The notes beneath the pieces are model-generated. The model saw nothing but the letters and a program-made list of their open reading frames with translations. It was not told the DNA's origin and made no database searches. A stretch of 64,000 nt of DNA, taken from an uncultured Clostridium sp. (GTDB lineage Bacteria; Bacillota; Clostridia; TANB77; CAG-508). Each line of letters begins with the position of its first letter. Position 1 is the stretch's first letter. The DNA is taken from NCBI GenBank assembly GCA_930980855.1, contig CAKNIZ010000001.1, forward strand, positions 186,615 to 250,614, in the 5' to 3' direction. This document shows, one piece after another, positions 3,347 to 58,530 of the stretch. Position numbers and translations under genes: made by a program.

Positions 3347-3459
3347 TTGTATATTTAAATTTTGCAGTTCCGTGCAAGCGTTCAAACAAGCTGGAAGGCT
3401 TCCAGCGAAGTGCGTTTGGAGCGCAGCTCCCGCAAGGAACAAGAAATTTAAATATACAA
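3347..3459 (+). repeat. Structured repeat family copy A (long form, 113 bp)
   Basis: TTGTATATTTAAATTT ... AAATTTAAATATACAA terminal inverted repeats; inner GTTCC/GGAAC and GCTGGAAG/CTTCCAGC stems. Confidence 0.9.
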
Positions 3460-5693: not shown

Positions 5694-5778
5694 TTGTATA
5701 TTCAAAATTTTGCAGTTTCGCGCAGCTTGGAGGACTTTATGTCCGACAGCAAGAAACCAAAAATTTTTGAATATACAA
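5694..5778 (+). repeat. Structured repeat family copy B (short form, 85 bp)
   Basis: TTGTATATTCAAAATTTTGCAGTTTCGCGCAGCTTGGAGGACTTTATGTCCGACAGCAAGAAACCAAAAATTTTTGAATATACAA. Confidence 0.92.
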
Positions 5779-6857: not shown

Positions 6858-9452
6858 TTATTCGGTTCTCAAGGCCCTAACTGGATCTCTTTTACTTGCC
6901 ATCTTTGATGGAATTAATCCAGCAATTATTGTTAAGAACATACTTATTAATACTAATATTATTCCAGCTTGCCAAGGTAAGAACGCTTTTACATTTACTC
7001 CTGTAACAGACATGATTATACTATTAATTGGTATAGTAAGAAGTACTGTTACCCCTATTCCTATTAATCCAGATACTAAGCCTGTTATAAATGTTTCTGC
7101 ATTGAATACTCTTGAAATATCCCTTTTTGAAGCACCAATTGCTCTTAGAATTCCTATTTCTTTTGTTCTTTCTAATACAGATATATATGTTATAATTCCT
7201 ATCATTATAGATGAAACAATTAATGATATAGCAACAAATGCAATTAATACATAACTTATCGTATCTACAATTGTTGATACAGAACTCATCATAATTCCTA
7301 TTGTATCTGTATAATTTATTTTATCATTTTCTATTTCTTGATTGTTATTATATTCTGTTATGCTATTAGATATTGCTTCTTTTGAGTCAAAATCTTTTGG
7401 ATAAATATTTATTGCACTTGGAGAATTTAAGTCAATAACTCCTAACTTTTCTAAGTTATTTTCATAAGAGGCCTCACTATTTTCTGCGTATGCTTCCATT
7501 AATTTACTTAAATCTTCAGCATTCATTGATGCTAGTGCCATTTTTTGTTCTGTAGACAGACTATCTAAACTAAAGTCCTCTTCTTCTCCATCCTTTGGAA
7601 ATTCTAATCCTGTAAATACATTTATTTCTGGATTATCTTTCTGCTCTTTTACTATATCTGTTTCATTTGCTTTATTGGCTACATATTCAACTAAAGATTT
7701 TGTATACCCTATACCGCCTTGAGTATTACTACTTACACTTTCTTCTTTTTGTTTTATTATTCCAACTACTTTTAATTCTTCTGCACTTTTTAATTTTTCC
7801 TTTAGATATTCTTCATTTTCACTTTTATCTACCCATGCACCATTTTCTTTATTGTATAATTCCGCATTTAGCAATATTTTAAAAGATAAATTCAATAAAT
7901 CATCATAAGTATACGAACTTCCCTCATTTTCATCAACTTGTTCTCCGTTTTGTATTTTTGTCATTTTATCTTTTAATTCATCTTGATTTTTTAGTCCTAA
8001 TGAATACAATGTGTAATCACTTATTTCATTATCTTTATCTACAATTACAACTACTTCATTATAATTTTCTGGCCATTTACCTTGTAATAGTTCATATTGC
8101 ATATCTAACATATCCCTATTATCAAAAAGTTCACTAAATACATTTACATCACTCATCATCATAGTAGAGCCATACATTTGATTTCCCGCTTCTACCATGC
8201 TTTCCATTCCAATAGTATTCATTACTTGACTTGGATTAACTTTTACTACTCCATTTGATGTATCTGACTTATATATGTTTAAATCTAAATCATAACTATA
8301 TTTAATAGCATTTGCATAAGGCTTTATTTTATCAGTTGTTTCTATATATTCTTTAAACTTAGCAAGGTTATTAGTTTTTACTTCACTTGACATAGTGGTT
8401 AGCATTGAATCCATTATGTCTCTTGAATATATTTTATTTTCTTCTTTTGTCTCCTCTTGATTTCCTTCAGCTGTATCCATAAGACCTGCCATCAAACCAC
8501 CTAAATCAATTGTAGATTCCTGCAAAGTTACCGGATAAGAAGCAAGTGTATCTTCTTCTATACTTGATATATAATTTTGCACTCCTGCTGAAAGTGATAA
8601 TATAAGAGCTATTCCTATAATACCAATACTTCCTGCAAATGCAGTAAGTATCGTTCTTCCTTTTTTGGTCATCAAGTTATTCAAGCTTAATGATAATGCA
8701 GTTAAGAAACTCATTGAAGGCTTCTTCTTTTTATTATCTTCTTTTTCTTCTTTTTCTTTTCCGTCATATGGATTACTATCATCTATAATATTTCCGTCAA
8801 GTATTTTGACTGTTCTTGTAGCATATTTTTCCGCTAAATCCGGATTATGTGTTACCATTATAATTAAATGTTCTTTTGATATTTCTTTTAAAATATCCAT
8901 AACCTGGACACTAGTTTTTGTGTCCAATGCTCCAGTTGGTTCATCTGCAAGTATAATATCTGGGTTATTTACAATTGCTCTTGCAATAGCAACTCTTTGC
9001 ATTTGTCCACCAGATAATTCGTTTGGCCTTTTATGTAGTTTATCTCCTAAACCAACTTTTTCTAATGCTTCTATTGCTCTTTTCTTTCTTTCTTTTTTTG
9101 AAACACCTGATATTGTAAGTGCAAGCTCAACATTTGACAATATACTTTGATGTGGTATTAAGTTATAACTTTGAAATACAAATCCTATACTATGATTTCT
9201 ATAAGTGTCCCAATCTTTGTCTTTAAATTCCTTTGTTGATTTTCCATTAATTATTAGATCCCCACTTGTATAATGATCCAACCCCCCTATTATGTTTAAT
9301 AGAGTGGTTTTACCACATCCACTCTGACCTAAAATAGCCACAAATTCATTTTCTCTAAATTTTATACTTATTCCTTTTAATGCCTGGACAGTTTCATTTG
9401 ATGTAATATAATCTTTTTTAATATTTTTTAATTCTAACATACTAACCTCCAT
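6858..9452 (-). CDS. MacB-like ABC transporter, fused ATPase and FtsX-type permease
   Basis: Walker A GQSGCGKTTLLNIIGG, LSGGQMQRVAIARAI, DEPTGALD; C-terminal FtsX domain SVLERTKEIGILRAIGASKRDI. Confidence 0.9.
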   Translation of the reverse strand: MEVSMLELKNIKKDYITSNETVQALKGISIKFRENEFVAILGQSGCGKTTLLNIIGGLDHYTSGDLIINGKSTKEFKDKDWDTYRNHSIGFVFQSYNLIPHQSILSNVELALTISGVSKKERKKRAIEALEKVGLGDKLHKRPNELSGGQMQRVAIARAIVNNPDIILADEPTGALDTKTSVQVMDILKEISKEHLIIMVTHNPDLAEKYATRTVKILDGNIIDDSNPYDGKEKEEKEDNKKKKPSMSFLTALSLSLNNLMTKKGRTILTAFAGSIGIIGIALILSLSAGVQNYISSIEEDTLASYPVTLQESTIDLGGLMAGLMDTAEGNQEETKEENKIYSRDIMDSMLTTMSSEVKTNNLAKFKEYIETTDKIKPYANAIKYSYDLDLNIYKSDTSNGVVKVNPSQVMNTIGMESMVEAGNQMYGSTMMMSDVNVFSELFDNRDMLDMQYELLQGKWPENYNEVVVIVDKDNEISDYTLYSLGLKNQDELKDKMTKIQNGEQVDENEGSSYTYDDLLNLSFKILLNAELYNKENGAWVDKSENEEYLKEKLKSAEELKVVGIIKQKEESVSSNTQGGIGYTKSLVEYVANKANETDIVKEQKDNPEINVFTGLEFPKDGEEEDFSLDSLSTEQKMALASMNAEDLSKLMEAYAENSEASYENNLEKLGVIDLNSPSAINIYPKDFDSKEAISNSITEYNNNQEIENDKINYTDTIGIMMSSVSTIVDTISYVLIAFVAISLIVSSIMIGIITYISVLERTKEIGILRAIGASKRDISRVFNAETFITGLVSGLIGIGVTVLLTIPINSIIMSVTGVNVKAFLPWQAGIILVLISMFLTIIAGLIPSKMASKRDPVRALRTE

Positions 9453-9454
9453 TA

Positions 9455-10378
9455 CTATATTCCACTTAAGTCAAACTTTGGAACATACTCTTCTTCATGT
9501 TTTCCCAAGTCTTGCATATATCCGTTCTCTATACCTAATATATATAAGTAATTTTCTACTTTTTTATACTCTTTTATATTAATTTTTCTATTTATCTTTT
9601 CCATTTCTTTTGCCTTATATGCCGGAAAATATTGTGCCATTACACTTACATAAATACCTTCTGGCATATTTTCTTTTATCCATTTTAGTATTCTTTTAGT
9701 ATTTTGGACATAATTAGGAAGTATTAAGTGTCTAATGATTACTCCTTTTTTTATTATTCCATTTTCATCAAACTTGGGATTTCCGACTTGCCTATACATT
9801 TCCTTTATTGCCTCTGTAGCAATTTTAAAATAATTTGGAGCAGATGAGTATTTTATTGCTATTTCATCAGAATAATATTTCAAATCTGGCAAATATACAT
9901 CTATATAACCTTCTAGCATTTTTAGTGCTTCTACATTTTCATATCCATTTGAATTATATATTATTGGAATATTTAAACCTTTTCTTTTTGCTATTTCTAT
10001 TGCTTGTATAATCTGAGGAATATACATTGTTGGAGTTACCAAATTAATATTATTTACTTTTCTATTTTGTTGTTCTATAAAAATTTCTGCAAGTCTTTGA
10101 ACTGTAATTTCCTTTCCTTTACCGCTACTGCTTATTTCATGGTTTTGGCAAAATACACATCTTAAATTACAATTACTAAAAAATATAGTTCCAGATGATT
10201 TTGTATTTTTGCTAATCCCACTAATACAAGGTTCCTCAAAATCATGGCATGACACTAATGCTAACTTCACTTTATCTCCCGCATTGCAAAAACCTTTTTC
10301 CCCATTTAATCTATTTACTTCACATTTTCTTGGACAAATTTCACATTTTTCTAACATAATAAAAATATTATAGCACAT
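9455..10378 (-). CDS. Radical SAM protein, PflX/PflA-like (COG1313-type)
   Basis: CEICPRKCEVNR, GTIFFSNCNLRCVFCQNHEIS CxxxCxxC motif; true start may be the internal MLEKCEIC. Confidence 0.82.
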   Translation of the reverse strand: MCYNIFIMLEKCEICPRKCEVNRLNGEKGFCNAGDKVKLALVSCHDFEEPCISGISKNTKSSGTIFFSNCNLRCVFCQNHEISSSGKGKEITVQRLAEIFIEQQNRKVNNINLVTPTMYIPQIIQAIEIAKRKGLNIPIIYNSNGYENVEALKMLEGYIDVYLPDLKYYSDEIAIKYSSAPNYFKIATEAIKEMYRQVGNPKFDENGIIKKGVIIRHLILPNYVQNTKRILKWIKENMPEGIYVSVMAQYFPAYKAKEMEKINRKINIKEYKKVENYLYILGIENGYMQDLGKHEEEYVPKFDLSGI

Positions 10379-10440: not shown

Positions 10441-10576
10441 TTGTATATTTGAATTCTTGTTCCTTGCGGTCGCTGCTAAAATTCTTCGAATTTTACAGCT
10501 CCAAACGCACTTCGCTTAAAATCCTTTTAAGCTCGTTTGAACGCTCACGCGGAACCGCGAATTTTCAAATATACAA
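10441..10576 (-). repeat. Structured repeat family copy C (long form, 136 bp, reversed)
   Basis: TTGTATATTTGAATTC ... TTTTCAAATATACAA; reverse complement aligns with copies A and F. Confidence 0.9.
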
Positions 10577-21208: not shown

Positions 21209-21293
21209 TTGTATATTCAAGTTCTTGCAGTTTCTCGCAGCTTGGAGGACTTTACGTCCGACAGCAAGAAACAAAAGAACTTTGAATATACAA
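21209..21293 (+). repeat. Structured repeat family copy D1 (short form)
   Basis: TTGTATATTCAAGTTCTTGCAGTTTCTCGCAGCTTGGAGGACTTTACGTCC...GAATATACAA. Confidence 0.92.
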
Positions 21294-21321: not shown

Positions 21322-21406
21322 ATGTATATTCAAGTTCTTGCAGTTTCGCGCAGCTTGGAGGACTTTATGTCCGACAGCAAGAAACAAAAGAACTTTGAAT
21401 ATACAA
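21322..21406 (+). repeat. Structured repeat family copy D2 (short form)
   Basis: ATGTATATTCAAGTTCTTGCAGTTTCGCGCAGCTTGGAGGACTTTATGTCC...GAATATACAA. Confidence 0.92.
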
Positions 21407-27258: not shown

Positions 27259-27330
27259 ATATCTCTCCTCCTGTGTAATTATATGATAAGTTTTTATTTA
27301 TATGATTTTTTGTTTTGGGACGGACAATAA

Positions 27331-29337: not shown

Positions 29338-29405
29338 GGTAGGAACGACCTTTAGCTCACACTATTGGCTAGTTCCTACCTATTTCTCTATAAACTTTAC
29401 ACTCT

Positions 29406-29456
29406 CGGAGGACTTTATGTCCGACAGCAAGAAACAAAAAATCTTTGAATATACAA
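29406..29456 (+). repeat. Structured repeat family copy E (3' half only)
   Basis: CGGAGGACTTTATGTCCGACAGCAAGAAACAAAAAATCTTTGAATATACAA; 5' TIR absent. Confidence 0.85.
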
Positions 29457-36228: not shown

Positions 36229-37248
36229 ATGAGAAATTTTAAGTTTTATTGCATTTCCTTAAAGAGAAATATTTTACCAATTTTATTTTTATTATTTATA
36301 GTTTTCCTATTAATATTTTCTAACAGTAATTTAGTAGCTACTAAATCCGGACTTAGTTTATGGGCTAATTCTGTAGTCCCATCATTATTTCCTTTCTTAG
36401 TAGCAACTGAGCTTTTGAGCTATACCAACATAGTTAATTTTATAGGTAGAAAATTGGACAGATTTATGAAACCTATTTTTAATGTCCCAGGAATTAGTGC
36501 ATATCCGTTTGTTCTTGGAATGATTAGTGGATATCCAGTTGGAGCTAAAACTGTCTGTCAGATTTATAAAGAAGGACTTTGTACAAAAAAAGAAGCAGAA
36601 TTTATGCTAGCTTATACTAATAATTCTGGTCCATTATTTATTGTTGGAACTGTTGGTATATCTATGTTTGGAAGTACTACAATTGGTTTAATTTTACTAC
36701 TTACTCATATTCTAGCTTCTATTTCAGTTGGAATTATTTTAGGTAAGTTTTTTAAAAAAGATAGTGTTTCTATTCAAAATAGAATTATAAAAAATAATAG
36801 AAAAACTATTACCTTCTCTTCTTTAGGCGAAGTTTTAGGTAATAGCATTATGAGTAGTATAAAAACAATTCTAATGATTGGCGGTTTCGTAGTTATATTT
36901 TCAGTAATTATTTCTATACTTAAAAATTCAGGATTACTAAATTTTATATCTCACATTTTTGGTGACTCTGAATTCGTATCTGGTATTATAACAGGAATCA
37001 TTGAGCTTACAAATGGTCTAAATGTTGTTAGTAACATTCATGTAAAACAAATTTCAATAAATATATTAATATGCGCTTTTCTATTAGGTTTTGCTGGTCT
37101 TTCTATTATGCTTCAAATATTAAGTGTAGTGTCCAAAGAAAAACTTTCTATAAAGCCATATGTTATTGGAAAGATTATGCAAGCAATACTTGCGACTTTA
37201 TATACTTTTGTAGTTTTGCAGTTACCAATATTTGGTTTTAATTTATAA
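36229..37248 (+). CDS. ylbJ: Sporulation integral membrane protein YlbJ
   Basis: LWANSVVPSLFPFLVATELL, GMISGYPVGAKTVCQIYKEGLCTKKEAEFMLAYTNNSGPLFI. Confidence 0.9.
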   Translation: MRNFKFYCISLKRNILPILFLLFIVFLLIFSNSNLVATKSGLSLWANSVVPSLFPFLVATELLSYTNIVNFIGRKLDRFMKPIFNVPGISAYPFVLGMISGYPVGAKTVCQIYKEGLCTKKEAEFMLAYTNNSGPLFIVGTVGISMFGSTTIGLILLLTHILASISVGIILGKFFKKDSVSIQNRIIKNNRKTITFSSLGEVLGNSIMSSIKTILMIGGFVVIFSVIISILKNSGLLNFISHIFGDSEFVSGIITGIIELTNGLNVVSNIHVKQISINILICAFLLGFAGLSIMLQILSVVSKEKLSIKPYVIGKIMQAILATLYTFVVLQLPIFGFNL

Positions 37249-37260
37249 AAGTTGTATATT

Positions 37261-37920
37261 TTAAACAGATTTCATATTTTTAATAGTATATTTATAATCT
37301 TTAGAATTTATAATTGATGTACCAGCTACAGCTATAGTAGTTCCAACTTCTTTTACTTGTTTTGCATTTTCTAAATTAATTCCACCATCAACTTCTATTT
37401 CTGTCTCTAATTCTAATTCATCTATTATTTTTTTTGCTTCCTCTATTTTTGAAATTGTACTTTCTATAAATTTCTGTCCACCTTTTCCAGGTTCAACAGA
37501 CATTATAAGAAGCATATTTATTCTTGGCAAAAATGTTTTTATTTCTTCTATACTAGTATTTGGTTTTATAGCAAGGCCTACTTTACAATCATATTCTTTA
37601 ATATAATTTATAAATTGATTAACTTCTTCCTTATTTTTGCAAGCTTCATAATGAAATGTTAGAATATGAGGATTAAATATAACATAACTATCTATATATT
37701 CTTTTATATTTGATACCATAAAGTGCACATCAATTGGAATATTTGTAATTTGATTTAGGTATTCGCAATATTTTCTCATTTTTTCAGATGTATCATTTTC
37801 TACAAATCTTCCATCCATTACGTCTATATGAAAATAATCTGTATGGGCTACTTCTAAATCGTATATTGTTTGAACTATCTTATTTTCTTCTACATTCAAA
37901 AGTGATGTTGATATTTCCAT
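37261..37920 (-). CDS. rpe: Ribulose-phosphate 3-epimerase
   Basis: DYFHIDVMDGRFV, IDVHFMVSN, MSVEPGKGGQKFI, EVDGGINLENAKQV. Confidence 0.92.
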   Translation of the reverse strand: MEISTSLLNVEENKIVQTIYDLEVAHTDYFHIDVMDGRFVENDTSEKMRKYCEYLNQITNIPIDVHFMVSNIKEYIDSYVIFNPHILTFHYEACKNKEEVNQFINYIKEYDCKVGLAIKPNTSIEEIKTFLPRINMLLIMSVEPGKGGQKFIESTISKIEEAKKIIDELELETEIEVDGGINLENAKQVKEVGTTIAVAGTSIINSKDYKYTIKNMKSV

Positions 37921-38783: not shown

Positions 38784-38805
38784 TATTACTCCTATTATAA
38801 ATAAA

Positions 38806-38940
38806 ATGTATATTTGAAACTTCGCAGTTCCACGCAAGCGTCCAAACAAGCTGGAAGGATTCCAGCGAAGTACGTTTGGAGCTGGCAAATTCGTAGAATT
38901 TGAGCAGCGACCGCAAGGAACCAGAAGTTCAAATATACAT
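38806..38940 (+). repeat. Structured repeat family copy F (long form, 135 bp)
   Basis: ATGTATATTTGAAAC ... GTTCAAATATACAT; inner GCTGGAAGGATTCCAGC and AAATTCGTAGAATTT hairpins. Confidence 0.9.
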
Positions 38941-38980
38941 TTTTTATTAAATTAATAAGCTATAAATTCTAACACAAATC

Positions 38981-42760: not shown

Positions 42761-42880
42761 ATATTTCTCCTATTATTTTATACCACAAACTTAGTCGTTT
42801 TTCAAGATGCTTACTATAAAAAAGTACGATTAGTAAATTTAATAAGTTATTATTCACAGCCTCTTATTAAGTTAATAAAA

Positions 42881-42965
42881 TTGCATATTCAAGATTTTGC
42901 AGTTTCGCGCAGTTTGGAGGACTTTACGTCCGACAGCAAGAAACAAAAAATCTTTGAATATACAA
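42881..42965 (+). repeat. Structured repeat family copy G (short form)
   Basis: TTGCATATTCAAGATTTTGCAGTTTCGCGCAGTTTGGAGGACTTTACGTCC...TTTGAATATACAA. Confidence 0.92.
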
Positions 42966-43013
42966 TTCTAAAACATTTTATACCACTGTGAATTGTAACT
43001 TTAATAAAATTTA

Positions 43014-50139: not shown

Positions 50140-50224
50140 TTGTATATTCAAGATTTTGCAGTTTCGCGCAGTTTGGAGGACTTTATGTCCGACAGCAAGA
50201 AACAAAAAAACTTGGAATATACAA
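50140..50224 (+). repeat. Structured repeat family copy H (short form)
   Basis: TTGTATATTCAAGATTTTGCAGTTTCGCGCAGTTTGGAGGACTTTATGTCC...GGAATATACAA. Confidence 0.92.
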
Positions 50225-50935: not shown

Positions 50936-51087
50936 CTTATTATTTTTTATATTATTAGAATAATAAATATTTTGTTTTTTGTCAATTAGATAAAAAAATC
51001 TAAATTTTCTTGCAACTTTTTCAAATATAGTATATATTATATACTATGTTCACATAGAAACAAAAAATAAAATATATAAATAATATA

Positions 51088-51231
51088 TTAGCGCCTGGGC
51101 AGTTTTGCTGTTGACGAGGATAGAGGTTATCGAAATATTCGGCGGATACTCTATGGCATGCTATTGTCAGAAATATTGTAAAAAAATATTAGCAATAATA
51201 TAACAAAGCAATATTATTAGCCTTTGTGGAC
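51088..51231 (+). ncRNA. glmS ribozyme (GlcN6P-activated self-cleaving riboswitch)
   Basis: AGCGCC...GTTGACGAGGATAGAGGTTATCGAAATATTCGGCGGATACTCT core 27-170 nt upstream of glmS; predicted cleavage between A51090 and G51091. Confidence 0.95.
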
Positions 51232-51257: not shown

Positions 51258-53072
51258 ATGTGTGGAATAGTAGGATACATTGGTACTAAGAAAGCTGTAC
51301 CAGTGCTTATTAAAGGATTGCTTTCATTAGAATACAGAGGTTACGACTCTGCCGGTATTTGCGTTTTGAATAAAAATGTTTTAGATGTAGTTAAGGATAA
51401 AGGTCGAGTTAAAAATTTAGAAGATAATCCTAAACTTTCTAATCTAGTTGGTAATATAGGAATTGCTCATACCAGATGGGCAACTCATGGAATACCATCA
51501 AAAGAAAATTCGCATCCACATTTAGACAATACAAAGCAATTTGCTGTAGTTCATAATGGAATTATTGAAAATTATACAGAACTTCGTAATATGTTAGAAA
51601 AAAATGGTTATACTTTCCAATCTCAAACAGATACAGAAGTCATACCAAATTTAATTTCATATTATTATAAAACTGAAAAAGATGTATTAAAAGCTGTTTC
51701 TTTAGCTATAAAAGATTTAAAAGGAAGTTATGCAATAGAAGTTATATCACCTTTATTAACTGATACTATTATAGTTGCAAGAAAAGATAGTCCATTAGTT
51801 ATTGGAATTGGAGATAATGAAAACTATATTGCATCAGATATACCAGCAGTTTTAAATTATACCACAAAATTTTATTTCTTAGATGATAAAGAAATAGCTA
51901 CTATAAAAAAAGACAAAATAACTTTTTATGATAGTACTTTAAAAACTATAACTAAAGATATTAAAGATATTGAATGGGATGCTACAAGTAGTGAAAAAGG
52001 CGTATTTGAAGATTACATGCTTAAGGAGATTTATGAACAACCTCAAGTTGTTATGGAAACAATAGGTTCAAGATTAAAGCCTAATGAAAAATGTTATTTT
52101 GAAGATATTGATATAGATTTAAAAAATATTAATAAAATATACATTGTAGCTTGTGGTACTGCAATGCATGCAGGTTTAGCAACAAAATATACTTTTGAAC
52201 ATTTTTGCAAAATTCCAGTTGAAGTAGATATGGCTTCAGAATTTAGATATAGAAATCCTCTACTTAATGAACATACTTTATGTATATTTATAAGCCAATC
52301 TGGTGAAACTGCAGATACAATAGCTGCTCTAAAACTTGCCAAAGATGCTGGCTGCAAAACTCTTGCTGTTGTAAATGTTATAGGTAGTTCAATAACTAGA
52401 ATTGCTGATTACACAATTTATACACATGCTGGTCCTGAAATCGCAGTTGCTTCAACAAAAGCCTACACTTGCCAAGTAGTTTTATTAAATATTTTAGCCA
52501 TATACTTTGCAGAGTGTTTAGAATACTCTTCTAAAGAATTAGAAGATTTTAAAACTGAAATATTAGAACTTCCAGCAAAACTAAAGTTAATTTTAGATGA
52601 TACTGATACAATACAAGAATTTGCAAAAAAAGTTTATACTCAACCTGATTTATATTTTATAGGAAGAAATACTGATTATGCGGTTTCAATGGAGGGGTCT
52701 TTAAAATTAAAAGAAATCTCTTACATTCATTCAGAAGCATATGCAGCTGGTGAATTAAAACATGGACCAATTGCATTAATTGAAAATGGTGTAACAGTAA
52801 TAGGAATTGCTACAAATCCTAATTTGGTTGAGAAAACAATGAGTAATTTAGAAGAAGTAATTACTAGAGGGGCAAATGTAATGGTTGTAAGCAATCAAAC
52901 TTTGCCTGATATAAAAATAAGTTGTAATATTCAAATACCAGAATGCTCACCAATGCTTTCTCCTATACTTTCTGTTGTTCCACTTCAGCTATTTGCTTAT
53001 TACATTGCTAAAAATAAAAAATTAGATGTTGATAAGCCTAGAAACTTAGCAAAATCTGTTACAGTTGAATAA
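51258..53072 (+). CDS. glmS: Glutamine-fructose-6-phosphate aminotransferase
   Basis: MCGIVGYIGTKKAVPVLIKGLLSLEYRGYDSAG, ISQSGETADTIAAL, PRNLAKSVTVE C-terminus. Confidence 0.98.
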   Translation: MCGIVGYIGTKKAVPVLIKGLLSLEYRGYDSAGICVLNKNVLDVVKDKGRVKNLEDNPKLSNLVGNIGIAHTRWATHGIPSKENSHPHLDNTKQFAVVHNGIIENYTELRNMLEKNGYTFQSQTDTEVIPNLISYYYKTEKDVLKAVSLAIKDLKGSYAIEVISPLLTDTIIVARKDSPLVIGIGDNENYIASDIPAVLNYTTKFYFLDDKEIATIKKDKITFYDSTLKTITKDIKDIEWDATSSEKGVFEDYMLKEIYEQPQVVMETIGSRLKPNEKCYFEDIDIDLKNINKIYIVACGTAMHAGLATKYTFEHFCKIPVEVDMASEFRYRNPLLNEHTLCIFISQSGETADTIAALKLAKDAGCKTLAVVNVIGSSITRIADYTIYTHAGPEIAVASTKAYTCQVVLLNILAIYFAECLEYSSKELEDFKTEILELPAKLKLILDDTDTIQEFAKKVYTQPDLYFIGRNTDYAVSMEGSLKLKEISYIHSEAYAAGELKHGPIALIENGVTVIGIATNPNLVEKTMSNLEEVITRGANVMVVSNQTLPDIKISCNIQIPECSPMLSPILSVVPLQLFAYYIAKNKKLDVDKPRNLAKSVTVE

Positions 53073-53162
53073 ATAAAATTTTAACTTATAAACAAAACGA
53101 TTTTGTAACTATAAGTTAGTGTTCAAACACTTTATTTACAACAGTTATGAGATACTTTAAAA

Positions 53163-53247
53163 TTGTATATTCAAAGATTTTTTGTTTCTTGCTGTCGGAC
53201 GTAAAGTCCTCCAAACTGCGCGAAACTGCAAAATCTTGAATATACAA
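53163..53247 (-). repeat. Structured repeat family copy I (short form, reversed)
   Basis: TTGTATATTCAAAGATTTTTTGTTTCTTGCTGTCGGACGTAAAGTCC...CTTGAATATACAA. Confidence 0.92.
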
Positions 53248-53329
53248 TATTTAAGTTCTATAATGAGTTGTGAATTGAAATACGTTTAGAGCGTATCGAC
53301 ACACAAAGAATTACAAAATCGTTTTTATT

Positions 53330-54166
53330 TTATGGTCTAACATTTGATTTATAATTTAATATATTACTTACTGTTTCAGGTCTTACAGGAGCCATTAATA
53401 CTTTTCCTGTTCCTCTATAAACATTTACAAATCCTTCTCCTGCAACTGCTGAACCGATCAAACTTCTTGTTGATTTTTCAACAGTAAAATTCAAAGCGCC
53501 AGACCAAGCAATTGCCATATTTCCATCAATCTTTATCTGATCATTATCTAATTCTACTTCAATTAATTCTTCTCTAGGAACTGGACTTTCTAATACTACT
53601 AATCCTCTTCCATCTAGTCTTAGGTTAAATAATCCTTCTCCTCCTAAAACTGCTGAAGAAATGTTTGACCTCATTGCAACATTTGTATTTATATTACCGT
53701 CACATGCTAAAAACATACCATCTTCAAGTACCATACCATTATTCCATGAACCAACATCTTCAATTAATATGTAATTATATGTAGGTTCTAAAGCCAAAAG
53801 CCCTGTTCCAAAGTATTTAGGCTTTGCAGCTGATTCTTTAGTTACACTTCCTTTAATAGCTTTTCCTAGAAAGTCTCCTACCCCTTTTACATCTGTTTTG
53901 CTTTCTATATTTCCAACTAGCCATTGCATAGCACCTGCACTAGTCACAAATTCGCTATTATTTAATTCTATTAAAACTTGTCTTCTTCTTACATTCATTT
54001 TTGCTGCATAATATTCATTAATTGCAGTAAGCTTATTTACACTTACATCCCTTTGAAATTCTATTACTGAGATATTATCTCTTTTTTCAATTGTTCTTAC
54101 ATCATCATTTTCAAATAAATTTTTAATTGATACCATATATTTTCCTCCATTTCTGGAATTATACAT
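53330..54166 (-). CDS. AIM24 family protein
   Basis: GEGLFNLRLDGRGLVVLESP, LIGSAVAGEGFVNVYRGTGKVLMAP. Confidence 0.85.
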   Translation of the reverse strand: MYNSRNGGKYMVSIKNLFENDDVRTIEKRDNISVIEFQRDVSVNKLTAINEYYAAKMNVRRRQVLIELNNSEFVTSAGAMQWLVGNIESKTDVKGVGDFLGKAIKGSVTKESAAKPKYFGTGLLALEPTYNYILIEDVGSWNNGMVLEDGMFLACDGNINTNVAMRSNISSAVLGGEGLFNLRLDGRGLVVLESPVPREELIEVELDNDQIKIDGNMAIAWSGALNFTVEKSTRSLIGSAVAGEGFVNVYRGTGKVLMAPVRPETVSNILNYKSNVRP

Positions 54167-56828: not shown

Positions 56829-56863
56829 AATTTTATAAAAATTAATATATTAATAATAATAAA

Positions 56864-56963
56864 ATGATATATTTTAAATTCTTTGTTCCTTACTGTCGCT
56901 AATAAAATTCAAAGAATTTTATAGCTCCAAACTGCGCGGAACTTCAAAATTTAAATATACCAT
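56864..56963 (-). repeat. Structured repeat family copy J (intermediate form, about 100 bp, reversed)
   Basis: ATGATATATTTTAAATTCTTTGTTCC...GGAACTTCAAAATTTAAATATACCAT. Confidence 0.8.
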
Positions 56964-58448: not shown

Positions 58449-58530
58449 TTGCATATTTAAATTTTGCAGTTCCACGCAGCTTGGAGAACTTGTTTCGACA
58501 ACAAGGAAAAAATAAATTTAAAATATGCAA
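58449..58530 (+). repeat. Structured repeat family copy K (diverged short form, 82 bp)
   Basis: TTGCATATTTAAATTTTGCAGTTCCACGCAGCTTGGAGAACTTGTTTCGACAACAAGGAAAAAATAAATTTAAAATATGCAA. Confidence 0.88.

Follow-up and report, generated by a model that had tools for sequence, protein, structure and literature searches.

A modular hairpin repeat with IS66-type ends in its young copies is inverted and exchanged at its sites in gut Clostridia

The 64,000-nt window analysed here, the whole stretch of DNA presented above, holds 12 copies of a palindromic repeat, all of them intergenic although intergenic sequence makes up only 12% of the window. The window belongs to a 1.545-Mb draft genome (G000) whose nearest named relatives are uncultured gut Clostridia and which carries about 121 copies in all, 48 of them with an additional hairpin arm. 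A first-pass annotation of copy F, which is flanked by the genes of a PASTA-domain serine/threonine kinase and of RsgA, described the repeat as an assembly of exchangeable hairpin modules. What kind of element is this, and how do its copies come to differ by whole arms?

Long and short forms of one folded core

The core folds into a long base stem, P1, followed by a short internal loop and a second stem, P2, which opens into a junction with two arms: arm 1, made up of P3 and the P4 hairpin, and arm 2 (Table 1). As first annotated, copies A, C and F carry an added arm relative to the short form; this is arm 1, inserted between GCGCA and GTTTGGAG and accounting for 37 nt in copy F. The short form lacks these 37 nt, yet it retains the 3' strand of arm 1 (TTTGGAG) and both junction strands. 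Because both forms have the P2 stem and both junction strands, we can exclude that they are unrelated sequences with only AT-rich ends in common; the long and short forms are homologous versions of one mobile element. Arm 2 ranges from GC-GAA-GC, via GGAC-loop-GTCC, up to GCTGTAAAATTC-GAA-GAATTTTAGCAGC, and its long version is seen both with and without arm 1. The variability ascribed earlier to this second arm holds over that range, but copy A turned out to have only a minimal one. The core measures 72-140 nt, and none of the 121 copies is longer than 140 nt. The element had also been placed at 38806-38940; these 135 nt of copy F are only the inner part of the full element, which reaches beyond them.

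Table 1. Copies of the repeat and their parts in the 64,000-nt window.
Feature	Position	Strand	Description
Copy A	3347-3459	+	arm 1 present, minimal arm 2
Copy B	5694-5778	+	short form
Copy C	10441-10576	-	long form with arm 1
Copy D1	21209-21293	+	short form, in tandem with D2
Copy D2	21322-21406	+	short form
Copy E	29404-29456	+	left part absent
Copy F	38806-38940	+	long form: structured core, arm 1 and full arm 2
Copy F, base stem P1	38806-38823 (5' strand), 38924-38940 (3' strand)	+	
Copy F, stem P2	38827-38831 (5' strand), 38917-38921 (3' strand)	+	
Copy F, arm 1	38837-38873	+	the 37 nt missing from the short form
Copy F, P4	38850-38866	+	covarying hairpin (GCTGGAAGGATTCCAGC)
Copy F, arm 2	38881-38908	+	hairpin
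Copy G	42846-42999 (core 42881-42965)	+	includes outer terminal repeats
Copy G, 8-bp duplication	42838-42845 and 43000-43007		TTTAATAA on both sides, perfect
Copy H	50140-50224	+	short form
Copy I	53163-53247	-	short form, lying inside an older long copy (about 53088-53330)
Copy J	56863-56962	-	lacks arm 1, has a long arm 2; core turned round compared with this site in G026
Copy K	58449-58530	+	short, folds weakly

The fold is well supported by comparison with shuffled sequence, with folding z-scores of -4.8 to -8.2 for the window copies other than copy K (z -2.3). In an alignment of 35 sequences, 92.8% of cells are paired and 21 pairs show changes on both sides; shuffles of the alignment give 11.0 +/- 1.7 such pairs, none of 500 reaches 21, and sliding the partner by 1-3 columns leaves only 30-49% paired. 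Indeed, the covariation noticed in the arm hairpin of three copies extends to 24 P4 variants among the 70 arm-bearing copies of two genomes, almost all of which keep 7-8 paired bases. P2 and arm 2 likewise take many sequences across the 121 copies here and 70 in the sister genome G026, and are nearly always paired. Among long copies, diversity is 0.03-0.07 in the P3 strands and the GAAGTG junction, compared with 0.17-0.30 in P1, P2 and P4. On the modelled strand G-U pairs outnumber A-C mismatches by 122 to 45, 44 of them at one P3 pair; this excess suggests that the better-folding strand is mostly the one outside the mRNA, although the alignment leans to the model.

Two ready identities were rejected. 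Rfam scans at gathering thresholds left the element unmatched and relaxed thresholds gave nothing credible, which argues against a known Rfam family. An intrinsic terminator with a U-tract does not fit either, since the T content 3' of the element is about equal on both strands (0.48 and 0.48 in the main context).

We compared the presence of arm 1 with gene context and with phylogeny, the two checks proposed in the first-pass annotation. The presence of arm 1 does not follow context: copies with the arm are distributed 9, 8, 6 and 23 over same, convergent, divergent and opposite settings, and copies without it 10, 12, 8 and 35. It also differs between sister genomes at some orthologous sites and is thus not fixed by descent.

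Several other observations concern the window and its genome. The older long copy at 53088-53330 has copy I in its arm region and appears inverted relative to G026. At 9417-9455 and 37228-37268 a copy is present in G026 and none here, the second site retaining a short remnant that resembles one arm. Miniature copies of ~42-58 nt, with outer repeats and almost no core, lie elsewhere in this genome (C13:34244-34301 and C24:3157-3198) and are possibly core deletions. A glmS ribozyme (51079-51225) lies upstream of a 604-aa ORF (51258-53072).

Transposon ends, an IS66 relative and a changing shell

Young copies are ~150-nt MITEs, small elements with no transposase gene inside, that have outer terminal repeats GTTACWATTYACAGC and 8-bp target duplications; their flanks are similar as far out as GTTACAATTCACAGC...GCTGTGAATTGTAAC. 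The site of copy G, with its perfect duplication, holds the same copy in G026 and other sequence in G017. Among the 40 copies with both ends visible, the flanking 8-mers match at 7 or 8 positions in 13, five of them perfectly; 2000 shuffles gave a mean of 0.4 and a maximum of 4. At the spacer of copy F (38784-38980), G017, G001 and G020 have a plain terminator-like hairpin in place of the element, and G023 has an element with outer repeats and a P1 that is paired but of different sequence.

The terminal inverted repeats of young copies are also those of an autonomous IS66 element. This insertion sequence, found in the congener G017, is 1952 bp long, has the same GTTACWATTYACAGC ends and contains one 547-aa transposase ORF of the IS66 family (PF03050, E 1.2e-17; NF033517, 186.7 bits against a cutoff of 180). 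No 8-bp target duplication surrounds this single intact copy. The IS is intact only in G017, with a decayed relative in G004, and we found no intact transposase in the genome studied here. The left 134 nt of the G017 IS nevertheless occur in this genome at 100% identity (C4:10869-11002, L228), and its first 54 nt and its last 55 nt form the ends of two contigs, C30 and C6, again 100% identical, so the IS is or was here. The identity of these fragments suggests that the element may have moved recently between species. Our searches of open-licence literature found no paper on IS66 MITEs.

These ends are present in 23 of 30 congeners, often enclosing other cores. A second, different structured core lies inside the same GTTAC...GTAAC ends at two sites of this genome (C1:172355-172526, L232; C15:37886-38068, L236), cores similar to it are present in G003, G008, G018 and G023, and C7:58037-58284 (L229) is a chimera with the second core type as its left half and the short form as its right half. 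The outer repeat is unrecognisable in 55 of the 121 copies, and in genus g17 the core is framed by GGGGTCGGTCC arms instead, so the IS66 shell is not universal. Judged from these sequences, the assignment as a putative IS66-type MITE applies to the young copies of this genus and not to the core as a whole; the conserved part is the junction core, and the shell changes. Small palindromic repeats GGGACGGTCC / GGGACGGAC, akin to the sequences framing the core in g17, occur in the window at 27317, 56181, 61090 and 61916.

BLAST placed the core in 4 genomes of the 31-genome genus set, its own included; a covariance model added weaker copies in G006, G018 and G021. Across the order, the model placed the core in 74 of 290 genomes and 15 of 45 genera, the listed matches all belonging to a single family; a class sample of 341 genomes yielded it from that family alone. 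Copy counts per genome in these two scans are lower bounds, as few candidates were scored. A regular-expression scan of 80 loci from relatives returned no copies, consistent with a patchy distribution. In other genera P1 and the outer arms differ. In a genome of another genus, GTTACAATTCACAG is found immediately outside a core copy as well (L398, left flank). The first-pass annotation missed the terminal repeats at the outer ends and the target duplications; the link to IS66, the occurrence across the family and the in-place inversion described below are likewise additions to it.

Inversion and exchange at orthologous sites

To compare sites, we paired each G026 copy with its best partner in G000 by their flanks, which are about 90-100% identical. 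The two genomes share 53 sites that carry a copy in both, in draft assemblies of which G026 is 79% complete and with orthology taken from the flanks: 28 have the same core (90% or more identity in the same orientation), 6 an inverted core and 19 a different core, 10 with the orientation shared and 9 with it reversed. At the six inverted sites the same core is turned round between flanks that are still in order. In the clearest case, C51:699 and C2:13175, 132 of 134 positions are identical when one core is inverted and the outer arms are collinear; C98 and C2:28095 agree at 79 of 80, and the remaining pairs (C43:5666/window copy J, C70/C21, C29/C13:39304 and C139/C13:3659) all do so at 94% or more. 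Two more inverted cores were found in another genus (L406/L414 and L405/L416). The breakpoints vary, falling within P1 in C51/C2 and in the outer repeat in C98/C2:28095, which is evidence against one fixed recombinase site.

Modules are exchanged as well. At C22:6613/C8:31650 the outer stem is kept and both arms are replaced, and the difference between C133 and C20 is one clustered patch. Thus the modular reading in the first-pass annotation holds insofar as each module can be there, be missing or be replaced independently of the others, with exchange taking place at fixed sites; its likeness to BOX elements is an analogy. At some of the 19 different-core sites a new element may have landed in the same spacer: at C1:65907 an older pair of ends encloses a short copy that has its own duplication, and window copy I lies within an older long copy. 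In near-identical ortholog pairs we saw several changes that break pairs and no double change.

The orientation of the core is linked to that of genes. Between co-directional genes it faces against the genes 58:19 here (p about 1e-5), with gene context taken from ORFs only and orientation from the covariance model, under which the two strands of a copy score very differently (e.g. 59.7 vs 34.4 bits). The same bias appears in G026 (26:9) and in a small collection drawn mostly from other genera and including orthologous pairs (20:3). Scored against the majority gene strand, which was estimated for each contig only from genes adjoining copies, orientation in convergent spacers is 10:10 here and 7:10 in G026. 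We therefore rejected replication strand as an explanation; the bias accompanies co-directional context. Frequent inversion together with this orientation bias suggests selection or a transcription-dependent mutational bias.

How the core may be remodelled

The arms of one copy match each other better than the arms of other copies. Over the 30 nt outside P1, the mutual match exceeds the between-copy 95th percentile in 24 of the 48 long copies (2.4 expected), and at one site in two species (L393/L394) two compensated double changes separate the P1 stems. Template switching between inverted repeats is known both to make arms alike and to turn spacers round (PMC8604942, PMC8794818); these being its published signs, it is the likeliest agent here. 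We consider it probable that this is an IS66-type MITE in this genus, with copy F as the structured core of such a non-autonomous transposon, and that the core is remodelled in place by switching or recombination between its inverted arms. An IS66-family transposase would act in trans on the MITE through the GTTACWATTYACAGC ends, presumably leaving the 8-bp duplications, and the DNA of the element would go on changing at its site after insertion. The inverted arms would allow a switch from arm to arm or from copy to copy, made by DNA polymerase or by recombination; such switching would homogenise the two arms of a copy, visible as compensatory changes, turn the core around, and delete or swap hairpin modules.

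Conversion or recombination between dispersed copies, with palindromic arms pairing with a donor in either orientation, is a close rival to within-copy template switching. It accounts for the changes of core type, for the patches and for sites both inverted and swapped, such as C141/C17, and about 121 donors are at hand in each genome. Several inverted cores, however, are unusual sequences 95-99% identical to the same site, which makes an outside donor unlikely; the arms are copy-specific, and the perfect boundary arms, mostly 13-23 bp, are short for homologous recombination. As the sole process we find conversion possible but somewhat doubtful, with template switching the most likely agent, although conversion may act as well. 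Neither accounts for the conservation of the junction strands or for the orientation bias: the low diversity of P3 and the GAAGTG junction, together with that bias, points to a constraint that neutral switching leaves unexplained, and selection may lie behind the transcription-linked bias. These same features speak for a functional structured RNA, whose copies would be selected as a transcript-end structure (a terminator, a 3' stabiliser or a new RNA with a binding junction) and whose covariation would be ordinary compensatory evolution. Junction strands are conserved over 15 genera while the stems vary, G-U exceeds A-C on the modelled strand, orientation is biased, and in co-directional spacers copies lie a median of 42-49 nt past the stop codon of the upstream gene. 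But the modelled strand is mostly antisense to the adjacent genes, Rfam holds no match, the T content 3' of the element has no strand bias, near-identical orthologs show broken pairs and zero double changes, and cores are swapped or inverted at one site within sister species; we regard such a function as unlikely to explain the family. A broader version seems to us improbable: a functional RNA or single-stranded DNA structure, common to the family, would sit as the core in different transposon shells, and selection acting by way of frequent flipping would set its orientation, making the elements many dispersed transcript-end switches.

The inversions themselves could be misleading. All the genomes are drafts, the named relatives being metagenome assemblies with short contigs, copies form the ends of several contigs and the arms in the G085/G137 pair are long, as expected if palindromic repeats had been misassembled. 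In the G000/G026 inverted pairs, however, perfect boundary arms reach at most 23 bp and are mostly 13-18 bp, lengths close to or under the k-mers in common use; the outer arms and the flanks stay collinear, and independent genome pairs show inversion, so that an artefact is very unlikely. We give hardly any credence to an inverton, that is, programmed inversion by a site-specific recombinase: the inversions are clean, in place, frequent and bounded by inverted repeats, but their breakpoints vary by site and arm sequences differ among genera.

Our preferred reading, an IS66-type MITE whose core is remodelled by switching between its arms, can be set beside known systems. The element seems to behave like BOX of Streptococcus pneumoniae (PMC3049150), with which we compared it by description: both are numerous intergenic MITE-like repeats with a hairpin fold, ends resembling an IS and an optional middle module (here arm 1, in 48 of 121 copies), and orientation-dependent effects have been reported for BOX. 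Unlike boxB, which multiplies in BOX, the module here is absent or single, and here the core inverts in place. The bcr1 repeat of the Bacillus cereus group (in PMC2267715), 147-167 nt long, similarly combines a conserved fold with mobile-element traits; compared likewise by description, it is specific to another group. Prokaryotic MITEs such as QMITE2 of Coxiella burnetii share terminal repeats, a stable stem-loop core and AT-rich intergenic sites, and MITEs have 7-9 bp direct repeats (PMC10969869); the terms IS66 and modular are absent from that review, and the element described here adds a conserved three-way junction and a core that inverts in place. Template-switch mutation at inverted repeats (PMC8604942, PMC8794818) matches in arm homogenisation, in several compensatory changes per event and in inversion of the spacer or loop, but the spacers inverted there are only a few bases, far shorter than the cores of about 80-135 nt here. 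As in gut-bacterial invertons (PMC11892184, PMC10939037), DNA between inverted repeats occurs in both orientations, in six cases in one genome pair and two in another; unlike them, this family has varying breakpoints in place of a fixed crossover site, about 120 dispersed copies and no recombinase linked to it so far.

Covariation is usually taken as proof of a selected RNA. In this one family covariation occurs alongside inverted cores, arms particular to each copy and modules exchanged at fixed sites, and this combination makes it a natural test of template switching versus selection as the source of hairpin covariation. With 25 of 53 shared sites inverted or different in core, our comparison suggests that the remodelling of small non-autonomous elements once they have inserted is quick enough to be visible between sister species, and it adds to gut Clostridia a structured repeat family absent from Rfam.
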